Assembly (NCBI RefSeq): GCF_016839145.1
Contig: NZ_CP069303.1
Span: forward strand, 248,001 to 312,000
Source of the DNA: Shinella sp. PSBB067
GTDB taxonomy: Bacteria; Pseudomonadota; Alphaproteobacteria; Rhizobiales; Rhizobiaceae
Length of the DNA stretch: 64,000 nt
Reading direction: 5' to 3'
The translations under genes were made by a program, and so were the position numbers. This document shows, in pieces, positions 21,523 through 60,968 of the stretch (within the stretch, counting starts at the first letter, position 1; every line of letters begins with the position of its first letter). Below the pieces are notes generated by a model. The model was not told the origin of the DNA, did no database searches, and saw only the letters and a list, made by a program, of their open reading frames with translations.

Positions 21523-22827
21523 ATGGGCGAGTTCGTCATCAAGATGCCCGATGTGGGCGAGGGCGTGGCCGAGGCCGAGCTTGTGGAATGGCACGTCAAG
21601 CCGGGTGATCCGGTGCGCGAGGACATGGTGCTCGCCGCCGTCATGACCGACAAGGCGACGGTGGAGATACCCTCTCCGGTCGACGGCACCGTGCTCTGGC
21701 TCGGCGCCGAGATCGGCGACATCGTCGCCGTCAAGGCGCCGCTGCTGCGCATCGAGGTTGCCGGTGAAGGTGAAGCCGTTGCCGAGGAAACCCCTTCTCC
21801 CCAGCGGGGAGAAGGTGCCCGAAGGGCGGATGAGGGGGCCTCGCCGCAAGCTTCGAGGGAGCCGTCCCCGCCGCCGAGCGAGCCGCCCCCCTCATCCGGC
21901 CCCGCGGGCCACCTTCTCCCCGCTGGGGAGAAGGGAAGAGTGGCAATGCCGGAGACGAAGCCGCTCGCCTCGCCCGCCGTCCGGCTGCGGGCGCAGGAAG
22001 CCGGCGTCGATCTGCGGCAGGTGTCGGGCAGCGGCCCGGCCGGCCGCATCACCCATGACGACCTAGACCGGTTCATCGCGCGTGGGGGACAACCCGCCGC
22101 CGCACAGGCCGGGCTTGCCCGCAAGACCGCGACGGAGGAGATCAAGGTCACGGGCCTGCGCCGCCGCATCGCCGAGAAGATGCGTCTCGCAAGCTCCCGC
22201 ATCCCCCACATCACCTATGTGGAGGAGGTCGACGTCACCGACCTGGAAGACCTGCGCGCCACGATGAATGCCGGCCGCAAGCCCGACCAGCAGAAGCTGA
22301 CCATCCTGCCCTTCCTGATGCGGGCGCTGGTGAGGACGCTGGCCGAGCAGCCCGGCGTCAACGCCACCTTCGACGACGATGCCGGCATCGTCACGCGTTA
22401 CGGCGCCGTCCATATCGGCATCGCCACGCAGACGCCGGCCGGCCTGATGGTGCCGGTCGTGCGCCATGCCGAGGCGCGGTCGATCTGGGACAGCGCGGCC
22501 GAACTCGTTCGCCTTGCCGATGCGGCCCGCAACGGCACGGCGGCGCGCGAGGAGCTTTCCGGCTCCACCATCACCATCACCTCGCTCGGCGCGCTTGGCG
22601 GCATCGTCACGACGCCGATCATCAACCATCCGGAAGTGGCGATCGTCGGCGTCAACAAGATCATGATGCGGCCCGTCTGGAACGGCAGCCAGTTCATTCC
22701 GCGCAAGATCATGAACCTGTCGTCGAGCTTCGACCACCGCATCGTCGACGGCTGGGATGCGGCGGTCTTCGTCCAGCGGCTCAAGGCGCTTCTCGAAACC
22801 CCCGCGCTGATCTTCATCGAAGGCTGA
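21523..22827 (+). CDS. bkdB: dihydrolipoamide acyltransferase (E2) of the BCKDH complex
   Basis: A 434-residue E2 with a lipoyl domain (1-77, lipoyl lysine in [12 protein letters not shown]), a linker, a peripheral-subunit-binding domain (about 145-185, [15 protein letters not shown]...[11 protein letters not shown]) and a catalytic domain (about 205-434) ending with the [10 protein letters not shown] histidine/aspartate motif. Residues about 91-138 of the first linker are encoded by a palindromic mosaic element (21793-21934) and read [13 protein letters not shown]...[14 protein letters not shown]. The frame is kept, so the protein should be functional because E2 linkers tolerate variation. 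Closely related E2 proteins would be expected to lack this stretch; that needs an alignment. Confidence 0.94.
21793..21934. repeat. RIME-like mosaic palindromic element inside the bkdB coding sequence
   Basis: The 142-bp element has two inverted arms. The left arm starts with CCTTCTCCCC-AGC-GGGGAGAAGG (21793-21815), continues with a CCCGAAGGGCGGATGAGGGGG-like segment to about 21839, and the right arm mirrors it from about 21888 to 21934. Each arm is itself a hairpin. A second copy lies at 59827-59945. The form resembles rhizobial intergenic mosaic elements (RIME-type), which are normally outside genes. Confidence 0.85.
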
Positions 22828-58213: not shown

Positions 58214-59752
58214 TTACGCATTGCCGGTCGCCGCGCGCACCAGCGTTTCCGCCGTCAGCCCCTCGCGGTCGTACAGGCCGGCCATCAGCCCCTCGCGCAT
58301 CACCATCACGCGGTCCGACATGCCGAGGATCTCAGGCAGTTCGGAGGAGATCATCACGATGGAAAGGCCCTCGCCGGCAAGTTCGGAGATGAAGGCATGC
58401 ACGGCCGCCTTGGAGCCGATGTCGATGCCCTTGGTCGGCTCGTCGAGGATGATGACCTTCGGCTTGGTGGCGAGCCACTTGCCGATCACCACCTTCTGCT
58501 GGTTGCCGCCCGAAAGCGTGCCGACCGGCACGGAGAGCGCGGCGGCACGAAGATCCAGCCGCTCGGCATATTTGCGCGCCAGCGAAAACTCGTTGATCGC
58601 CTTCAGGAAACCGCGCGCCGAGGTGCGGGCGAGCGAGGGCAGCGACATGTTCTGGTAGATCGGCATTTCGAGCGCGAGGCCGTGGCGGCCACGCTCTTCC
58701 GGCACATAGACGATGCCGGCGGCAATCGCGTCGGCGGACGAGCGGATGGCGATCTCGCGTCCGTCGAGGAAGGTCTTGCCCGAGGCGGGCACGGTCATGC
58801 CGAACAGCGACTGACAGAGCTCCGAGCGCCCCGCGCCGATGAGGCCATAGACGCCGAGGATCTCGCCGCGCCGGAGCTCGAAGGAAATGTCGCGGAATTC
58901 CGTGTCGTGGCAGTAGCCCTCGACCTTGAACACGGTCTCGCCGATGGCGACCTTGCTCTTCGGGAAGACGTCATGCACGTCGCGGCCGACCATCAGCCGC
59001 ACGATCTCCTCCTGCGGCGTTTCCTTCAGCCGGCCCACGCCGACCATGCGCCCGTCGCGGAAGACGGCGTAGCTGTCGGCTATCTCGTAGAGCTCGTCGA
59101 ACTTGTGGCTGATGAAGAGGATGGCCTTGCCCTGCTTCTTCAGGTTCCCGACGATGCGGAAAAGGTCATCGATCTCCTTACGCGAAAGCGCTGCCGTCGG
59201 CTCGTCCATGATGACGATGCGCGCCTCGACGGAGAGCGCCCGGGCGATCGCCACCAGATGCCGCTGGGCGATCGAGAGGTCCTTCAGCTTGATCGTCGGA
59301 TCGATATTGCTTTCGAGCTGGTGCATCAGCGCGCGGGCGCGCTCGTTGATGGTCTTCCAGTCGATGAGGCCGAAGCGCGTGCGCGGCGCATGGCCGAGGA
59401 AGATGTTTTCCGCGACCGTCAGCTCGTCGAAAAGCACGGTCTCCTGATGGATGGCGGTAACGCCGGCGTCGATGGCGGCCTGCGCATTGGCGAAGGCGAC
59501 GGGCTTGCCGTCCATGACGATCTCGCCGTCATTGGGGCGATAGATGCCGGTGAGGATTTTCACCAGCGTCGATTTTCCCGCGCCGTTCTCGCCGATCAGC
59601 GCCGTCACCTCGCCGGGAGAGAGCGCGATATCGACGCCGTCGAGCGCCTTCACGCCGGGAAAGACCTGCGAGATGCCGCGCATCTCCAGGATGGGCGTCT
59701 GCGTGCTTGCGGACGTCGGGCCGGCATCGTGCTGTTGTGGTGCAGCGAGCAT
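58214..59752 (-). CDS. rhaT: rhamnose ABC transporter double ATPase RhaT
   Basis: A 512-residue CUT2 double ATPase. First domain GENGAGKST and VIMDEPTAALS, with the degenerate LSIAQRHLVAIARAL signature; second domain GLIGAGRSEL, LSGGNQQKVVIGKWL and VIILDEPTKGID. ATG 59752 is chosen; upstream codons run into a palindromic repeat. Confidence 0.93.
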   Translation of the reverse strand: MLAAPQQHDAGPTSASTQTPILEMRGISQVFPGVKALDGVDIALSPGEVTALIGENGAGKSTLVKILTGIYRPNDGEIVMDGKPVAFANAQAAIDAGVTAIHQETVLFDELTVAENIFLGHAPRTRFGLIDWKTINERARALMHQLESNIDPTIKLKDLSIAQRHLVAIARALSVEARIVIMDEPTAALSRKEIDDLFRIVGNLKKQGKAILFISHKFDELYEIADSYAVFRDGRMVGVGRLKETPQEEIVRLMVGRDVHDVFPKSKVAIGETVFKVEGYCHDTEFRDISFELRRGEILGVYGLIGAGRSELCQSLFGMTVPASGKTFLDGREIAIRSSADAIAAGIVYVPEERGRHGLALEMPIYQNMSLPSLARTSARGFLKAINEFSLARKYAERLDLRAAALSVPVGTLSGGNQQKVVIGKWLATKPKVIILDEPTKGIDIGSKAAVHAFISELAGEGLSIVMISSELPEILGMSDRVMVMREGLMAGLYDREGLTAETLVRAATGNA

Positions 59753-59826
59753 GTTCGGTTTCACCTTGAAGGCCCTCTCCAGCGAAGGGCCGGGCAATTG
59801 CGTGGGACGCACGGCGTCTCGGTTTT

Positions 59827-59945
59827 CCTTCTCCCCTCGGGGAGAAGGTGGCCCGAAGGGTCGGATGAGGGGGAGGGACGGTCGCTTTCACCTCCGGCGG
59901 CCCCCTCATCCCGCTGCCGCGACCTTCTCCCCGCCGGGGAGAAGG
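59827..59945. repeat. RIME-like mosaic palindromic element between rhaS and rhaT
   Basis: The 119-bp element has arms of CCTTCTCCCC-TC-GGGGAGAAGG followed by a CCCGAAGGGTCGGATGAGGGGG-like segment, mirrored from about 59900 to 59945. It is the same element as at 21793-21934, shorter by its centre. In the rha message it would fold into large hairpins, which may keep more of RhaS than of the downstream transporter mRNA. It fills most of the 220-bp gap 59753-59972. Confidence 0.88.
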
Positions 59946-59972: not shown

Positions 59973-60968
59973 TCAGAAGATCTTCGCGAACTCTTCGACG
60001 TTCGAGGCGTCGTAGACGAAGGGATCGGCCATGGCGGCCTCGCCGTTGTCGCCGACCTTGATCTTGCCCATGCGGCCGGCTTCGATTTCCGAGCCCGGCG
60101 CGCCGTCCGTGTCACCCTTGACGAGATGATAGGCGATCTGGGTTGCGGAATAGCCGAGGTCGATCGGGTTCCAGATGGCGAATTCCTTGGTCGCGCCCGA
60201 CTTGATGGCGCCGGCCATCTCGGAAGGCAGGCCGAGGCCCGTCACGTAGACCTCGCCGATCTTGCCGGCATCCTTGACGGCCTGCGAGGCGGCAAGCACG
60301 CCGACCGTCGTCGGGGCGACGATGACCTTGACGTTCGGCTGCGAGGTCAGGAGGCCGTTGGCTTCGCGGTAGGACTTGTCGGCAAGGTCGTCGCCGTAGA
60401 CGGTGGTGACGAGGTTGAGGCCCGGGAAGTCGCCGATCTGCTTCTTCATTTCCTCGATCCAGGTGTTCTGGTTGGTCGAGGTCGTCGTCGCCGAGAGGAT
60501 CGCGAAGTCACCCTTGCCATCCGGCAGGTGGTCCTTGGCGAGCTGCAGGCACATCTTGCCGATCAGCTCGTTGGACGACGGGTTGAGGTGCATGATGCGG
60601 CCTTCCGAAGCCACGCCCGAGTCCCACGAGATGACCTTGATGCCGCGCTGCTGGGCCTTCTTCAGCGCCGGGACGACGGCGTCCGGGTCGTTGGCGGAGA
60701 TCGCGATGGCGTCGACGCCCTGCGCGATCAGTGAGTTGATGACCTCGATCTGGCCTTCGGCCGTCGTCGTGGTCGGGCCGGTATAGATGATCTCGACGCC
60801 GCCGAGTTCCTTGGCGGCTTCCTCGGCGCCCTTGTTGGCGGCCTCGAAGAAGCCGTTGCCGAGCGACTTGACGAGAAGGGCGATCTTCATGTCCGCGGCA
60901 TTGGCCGTGGACACCATGGCGGCAAGCGCGAGCGCCGCGCCGGCGAGCAGTTTCGTGGTCAGTTTCAT
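59973..60968 (-). CDS. rhaS: rhamnose ABC transporter binding protein RhaS
   Basis: A 331-residue type I binding protein. Signal peptide about 1-24 (STANAAD). Core segments ALLVKSLGNGFFEAANKGAEEAA and SLIAQGVDAIAISANDPDAVVPALKKAQQRGIKVISWDSG are as in RhaS of rhizobia. GGGAGGAAGACC precedes ATG. It lies between the regulator and the ATPase genes. Confidence 0.94.
   Translation of the reverse strand: MKLTTKLLAGAALALAAMVSTANAADMKIALLVKSLGNGFFEAANKGAEEAAKELGGVEIIYTGPTTTTAEGQIEVINSLIAQGVDAIAISANDPDAVVPALKKAQQRGIKVISWDSGVASEGRIMHLNPSSNELIGKMCLQLAKDHLPDGKGDFAILSATTTSTNQNTWIEEMKKQIGDFPGLNLVTTVYGDDLADKSYREANGLLTSQPNVKVIVAPTTVGVLAASQAVKDAGKIGEVYVTGLGLPSEMAGAIKSGATKEFAIWNPIDLGYSATQIAYHLVKGDTDGAPGSEIEAGRMGKIKVGDNGEAAMADPFVYDASNVEEFAKIF

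Follow-up and report, generated by a model that had tools for sequence, protein, structure and literature searches.

Palindromic repeats that are read in frame are most familiar from Rickettsia, an obligate intracellular genus, and the Rickettsia palindromic elements (RPE) were reportedly described in protein-coding genes by Ogata in 2000. The Rhizobium-specific intergenic mosaic elements (RIME) are said to go back to a report by Osteras in 1995. As far as the available text of the papers goes, in-frame gene fusions have been described for RPE, ERIC, and YPAL (PMC2229807, PMC10969869, PMC3767692), insertion hotspots have been raised with a biotin-ligase gene that carries elements in both Wolbachia and Rickettsia (PMC3767692), and RIMEs are mentioned as intergenic repeats (PMC2573895). 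Among the papers listed by searches of the openly accessible literature, none was seen to describe palindromic repeats read in frame in genes of Rhizobiaceae, subscription papers being mostly outside this scope.

Here, a palindromic repeat within the bkdB gene of Shinella sp. PSBB067 was analyzed; the window, that is, the whole stretch of DNA under study, comprises 64,000 nucleotides (NZ_CP069303.1, positions 248,001 to 312,000). Compared by description, and as far as the available accounts extend, the repeat is like RPE in being a multicopy palindrome of about 100 to 150 bp that occurs both between genes and, in the reading frame, inside genes that are unrelated to each other and often conserved. 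Unlike RPE, it resides in Rhizobiaceae, most copies in its own genome seem to be intergenic (by a crude codon usage screen of the stretches around 40 scored places), the old linker was replaced, and the repeat that occupies this one linker is not of the same kind in all lineages. It shares with RIMEs, again by description, the mosaic palindromes dispersed in rhizobial genomes, whereas RIMEs are described as intergenic in the text available and the bkdB copy is genic. The likeness to the Rickettsia elements, which had been proposed from the sequence of the locus, is supported as one of kind: multicopy DNA, in frame in unrelated genes. The best reading is therefore an RPE-like protein capture of repeats, a process known from another host group and tolerated in linkers.

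Position of the repeat in BkdB

The gene and the parts of its repeat are as follows.
21523..22827, plus strand, bkdB, E2 of the branched-chain 2-oxoacid dehydrogenase (434 amino acids; identified by Pfam domains and homolog names)
21792..21935, plus strand, two-armed palindromic repeat of mosaic build, in frame with the gene (BkdB residues 91-138)
21793..21815, plus strand, core palindrome of the left arm with a 3-base loop (pattern match at C2:269793-269815)
21816..21838, plus strand, remainder of the left arm (21793-21837 translate into 15 residues)
21839..21885, plus strand, spacer between the arms, with a Pro/Ser/Glu-rich translation and by eye different from the spacers of other copies
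21886..21911, plus strand, inner part of the right arm (21889-21936 translate into 16 residues)
21912..21934, plus strand, core palindrome of the right arm with a 3-base loop (pattern match at C2:269912-269934)

Homologs of BkdB are annotated as dihydrolipoamide acetyltransferase or branched-chain E2, the closest being that of Shinella sp. NM-101 (97%), and the open reading frames (ORFs) before and after the gene were named E1-alpha, E1-beta, and E3 from their translations. Pfam matched a lipoyl domain (residues 6-77), an E3_binding domain (147-181), and a 2-oxoacid_dh domain (203-431). The reading frame that starts at 21523 turns 21793-21936 into residues 91-138, which lie between the lipoyl and E3-binding domains. 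The initial annotation had placed a repeat at 21793..21934, in frame in the E2 linker at about residues 91-138; the coordinates proved correct within a base or two, both core palindromes are 23 bp long, and the Pfam domains agree with the position given. At the sequence level, residues 91-138 are thus confirmed as a copy of a multicopy palindromic repeat that is in frame inside the E2 linker. The AlphaFold model of BkdB had a mean pLDDT of 44.1, too poor for judging disorder of the linker. At the gathering threshold of Rfam, the repeat stretch matched no family; the sole Rfam match in the window was a cobalamin riboswitch (RF00174, 44326-44542, plus strand, 127 bits).

A dispersed repeat family

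A BLAST search with the bkdB repeat against its own genome gave 117 matches on both strands, which were grouped by hand into at least 40 places, a lower bound because scoring covered only 40 of the 139 candidates. Among the other full copies, the best had 78% identity (E 2.9e-27). One copy lies in the same window.
~59827-59945, no strand assigned, second copy, intergenic (72% identity, E 2.7e-13)
This is the second copy that had been reported between rhaS and rhaT; these two names are those of the initial annotation, and as judged from translations the copy is flanked by ORFs for an ABC-transporter ATPase (58214-59812, minus strand) and a substrate-binding protein (59973-60968, minus strand). 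Similarity no greater than chance between the two copies would have spoken against the insertion idea. The similarity was well above chance, as seen from the E value of the best copy and from the pattern of the core palindrome, which is its own reverse complement and gave 62 sites versus 0 for the reversed control.

Aligned side by side, the 40 copies were mosaics of common hairpin modules with varying spacers; 33 were two-armed (~109-180 bp) and 7 had a single arm (45-57 bp). Each of the 40 copies had 2 to 5 stop-free frames out of six, and all seven with five such frames were the single-arm copies. Beyond this genome, 175 of 72,556 plasmid records matched the repeat, 139 of them from Rhizobium.

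Element and ordinary linkers in related bacteria

A search at E 1e-60 found bkdB in 9 of 21 Shinella genomes, including the one studied here. In total, 118 bkdB loci were read, from which 16 with identical DNA were dropped. The 102 distinct genes comprised 12 with the element (in Shinella, Pararhizobium, and Rhizobium), 2 with another repeat, and 88 with neither, as called by peptide patterns that may miss decayed copies. Among the 120 nearest BkdB homologs listed, query included, 39 carried the element peptide. The element thus belongs to a set of species and is not special to this strain. Species names do not sort its presence: records of S. zoogloeoides are mixed, with P0026 and P0029 free of the element and P0005 and the plasmid record NZ_CP132313.1 bearing it. 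Extra modules in one arm of the element only, in frame, were seen in bkdB of L012 and L013 and in P0013, P0014, P0015, P0018, P0024, P0030, and P0111.

Alignment of BkdB from close relatives, which had been suggested as a check, showed that the stretch is absent in G017 and G018, the nearest element-free genomes (pS of the bkdB core versus G017, 0.13). In its place stands an unrelated Ala/Pro/Glu linker of 65 residues, versus 77 here, so that an element of 48 residues comes with a net gain of only 12. An equally long, nonrepetitive linker in all close relatives had been named as grounds for giving up the insertion idea, and as far as length goes this is partly what was found. The small difference is read as replacement, since the sequence is itself a multicopy repeat. 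What stands of the idea is the repeat-derived segment; a plain insertion does not, as most of the old linker was replaced. Because the linkers differ by only 12 residues and yet the sequence here is a multicopy repeat, the element appears to have swapped out most of the ancestral linker instead of simply lengthening BkdB. The Pararhizobium group fits the same replacement, since the element-free P0118 and the element-bearing proteins have a common upstream flank. Replacement instead of insertion is not the textbook signature of a mobile element and counts against the capture of a repeat.

Silent and replacement divergence were compared in 45 pairs drawn from 10 alleles out of the 12 with the element, L013 entering with a single arm. 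The element arms had a summed pS of 0.125 and a pN of 0.102, versus a pS of 0.413 and a pN of 0.067 in the remainder of the gene, giving pN/pS ratios of ~0.8 in the arms versus 0.16 in the core. The effect on silent divergence is modest in any single pair: in five such pairs, 1 to 24% of equal-sized core windows had a pS as low as that of the arms. The low pS of the arms and the ratio of ~0.8 would fit recently supplied or converted DNA under little amino acid constraint. The reading frame is kept in the bkdB element alleles. Core loops of 3 bases were found in 23 of 25 detected in these alleles, which are related so that the counts are not independent; the other two look like overlapping approximate matches. 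Elsewhere in this genome, the core loops of the repeat copies had 2 bases in 38 of 74 cases and 3 bases in 25 of 74.

Alternative explanations

E2 linkers are frequently rich in Pro and Ala, so a low-complexity, Pro-rich sequence might have arisen at this position by convergence, with no repeat involved. We regard this as scarcely credible in view of the DNA-level matches to other copies (up to E 2.9e-27) and the core palindromes that are missing from the reversed control. A second explanation is that the bkd message retains the hairpin for a signal at the RNA level, for example, a site for RNase III or for pausing that lies between the lipoyl part and the catalytic part, with the peptide as a by-product. 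A strong RNA hairpin in the middle of the message had been suggested as a possibility by the initial annotation, and folding predicts one: the minimum free energy of the bkdB linker mRNA was -119.3 kcal/mol, whereas 300 synonymous recodings averaged -75.2 (z -6.7) and none of them was as stable. A strong hairpin beyond the needs of the peptide is present, and its presence does not show use. It recurs in the relatives, since at most 4 of 300 recodings were as stable in 11 of the 12 element alleles, and two ordinary linkers had no excess (z 0.6 and 3.1). Set against this, the hairpin is weaker in L051 (z -2.4) and L012 (12 of 300 recodings as stable, z -1.7), as decay would give, and the linkers with other repeats are split, with an excess in L040 (z -2.5, 3 of 300 as stable) and none in L044 (z 1.3, 266 of 300). 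Moreover, element-free alleles are common in sister species, and recency by itself explains strong complementarity. An RNA signal is therefore considered improbable as the reason for keeping the repeat.

The scattered presence of the element could also go back to a single ancient insertion in a common ancestor, followed by losses in many lineages, with no repeated capture or exchange. The core of bkdB gave a tree of 100 rows, the two with other repeats being left out of 102, and presence of the element took 7 changes on it, 6 of them forced by starred branches. The tree of E1-beta and E3, built from 42 of the 100 rows, also gave 7 changes with 6 forced, and a quick protein tree of 120 rows gave 10 changes with only 4 forced. 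As the 7 changes show, the scattered presence implies that the element was gained, lost, or transferred with its allele several times, and such counts cannot separate gain from loss. The element alleles are more clustered than shuffled labels, which were as low in changes in 0 of 500 cases on the bkdB core tree and in 3 of 500 on the E1-beta and E3 tree; junction sequences are alike within the Shinella rows and within the Pararhizobium rows. Both observations are what one old insertion would give. However, element-free linkers are alike, by eye, on both sides of element clades, for instance in a tail that includes EKPxERP and 18 further residues, so losses would need to restore the old sequence, and across genera the element arms are less diverged at silent sites than the gene. 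A single ancient insertion therefore seems unlikely to us. Because junctions are alike within each of the two genera, we favor a few captures, with linker alleles then passed between species, and not a large number of separate insertions. Exchange also fits the spread of bkdB over different replicons: the gene is on a 4.6-Mb contig in this genome, whereas the G020 contig that carries it has 585,062 bases, as many as plasmid record NZ_CP132313.1, on which the match is annotated as the E2 gene.

Probable capture of repeats by E2 linkers

Taken over the locus and its relatives, the sequences make it very probable that a dispersed palindromic repeat of Rhizobiaceae was captured into the BkdB linker and kept as a readable in-frame spacer. 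A mosaic palindromic repeat would have landed in the linker between the lipoyl and E3-binding domains and been kept since it can be read in frame as a hydrophilic peptide of Pro, Ser, Gly, Arg, and Glu. Most of the ancestral Ala/Pro/Glu linker would have been lost, either by insertion and subsequent trimming or by linker exchange through recombination. Across Shinella and Pararhizobium, species with element alleles are interspersed with species that have ordinary ones, as gains, losses, or transfers would produce, the kind of event being a matter of interpretation. From established E2 biochemistry, the peptide probably does no more than provide flexible spacing, which gives the lipoyl domain room to swing, and selection may act mainly on frame and openness. 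A repeat turning into protein in a tolerant linker had been suggested at the outset; the element-free relatives, the multicopy DNA, and the further genic copies support it.

As permissive sites, E2 linkers have acquired other repeats as well. The bkdB linkers of G255 and G301 hold other repeats (L040 and L044), which are multicopy in those genomes with 28 and 53 matches, respectively, self included; bkdB of G255 is the same as that of Pseudaminobacter arsenicus L106, which was dropped as a duplicate. Our verdict is that E2 linkers are a recurrent, permissive site for repeat uptake. A wider proposal, to which we give slightly less than an even chance, is that different palindromic repeats have been captured in frame again and again in E2 linkers of Rhizobiaceae, overwriting the old linker and circulating among species as alternative alleles, so that the linker turns over by repeat capture and not by point mutation. 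In Rhizobiaceae, the process is found with element-free relatives nearby, in several genes, and with repeats of more than one kind, and because these are available, experiments can address how protein segments derived from repeats arise, what they cost, and what becomes of them, in a complex with a linker of well-understood function.

Copies in other genes

The finding is more general than the initial annotation stated, as it extends to several genes and to related species, with E2 linkers as a recurrent site, and junk-like repeats look here like a recurring source of protein sequence. A search for further copies inside genes, which had been recommended, yielded two more in-frame copies in this genome, and a third gene was found in another genome of the genus.
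L160 1520-2977 (C1:67550-69007), ferredoxin-reductase-like gene with in-frame repeat, own genome
L150 1740-2651 (C2:2545318-2546229), aminotransferase-like gene with repeat, own genome
L202 1030-2424 (G007:C56), pyruvate-dehydrogenase-type E2 (named from its translation) with the same repeat in the linker between the lipoyl and E3-binding domains

At the site in the ferredoxin-reductase-like gene, there are 231 nucleotides here versus 12 in G017 and G018, a net difference of +219 that is in frame. The part of the gene after the insert had a close match (78 to 97%) in eleven other Shinella genomes. The insert is absent in six of these, in which the part before it was also listed and abuts or overlaps the later part; in the remaining five, the first part fell below the cutoff. 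Like the in-frame ERIC and YPAL of enterobacteria, the repeat is a small open-frame element fused to genes; by the description available, those are MITEs with target-site duplications (PMC2229807), and no clean duplication was seen at this site in a comparison with L168 and L169 made only by eye. A protein search with the insert returned just one cluster, of four member sequences, on its own contig. In the aminotransferase-like gene, eight genomes were compared by eye at the spot concerned: four others had a different hairpin-like sequence, one had a similar repeat, and two had nothing. The pattern of the second repeat, taken from the aminotransferase genes of other Shinella, gave one site in this genome.

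The genic copies of this genome come from a screen that included a Pfam scan of only 10 ORFs with an overlapping copy, 4 of them without a match. The terminase ORF L133 was not counted as genic, as the element comes ahead of its first domain and the sequence upstream had a poor score; neither were L162, L148, and L145, which have Pfam domains on one side only. The XdhC-like ORF of L148 (1182-2048) ends 38 bases into a repeat copy, and the repeat seems to be the source of its stop codon.

E3-binding-domain matches numbered 77 in the genus, and in 30 of them the loci were checked over 330 nucleotides before the domain. The repeat was found there in 2 of 4 bkdB loci and in 1 of 26 other loci. The copy in the pyruvate-dehydrogenase-type E2 of G007 has another order of modules than that in bkdB. 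When the element part of BkdB alone served as query, a protein search returned 25 proteins, 18 of them BkdB. The other seven were two TilS, three GlyS-beta, one lyase of the HpcH/HpaI family, and one protein without a Pfam family. The insert follows the PP-loop domain in TilS and lies between the synthetase and DALR domains in GlyS; in BkdB, GlyS, and TilS, the inserts are between or after Pfam domains, a placement that refers to domain matches only, the structure model of BkdB being poor. In P0126, which has no Pfam family, a repeat-like peptide occurs three times inside longer repeated units.
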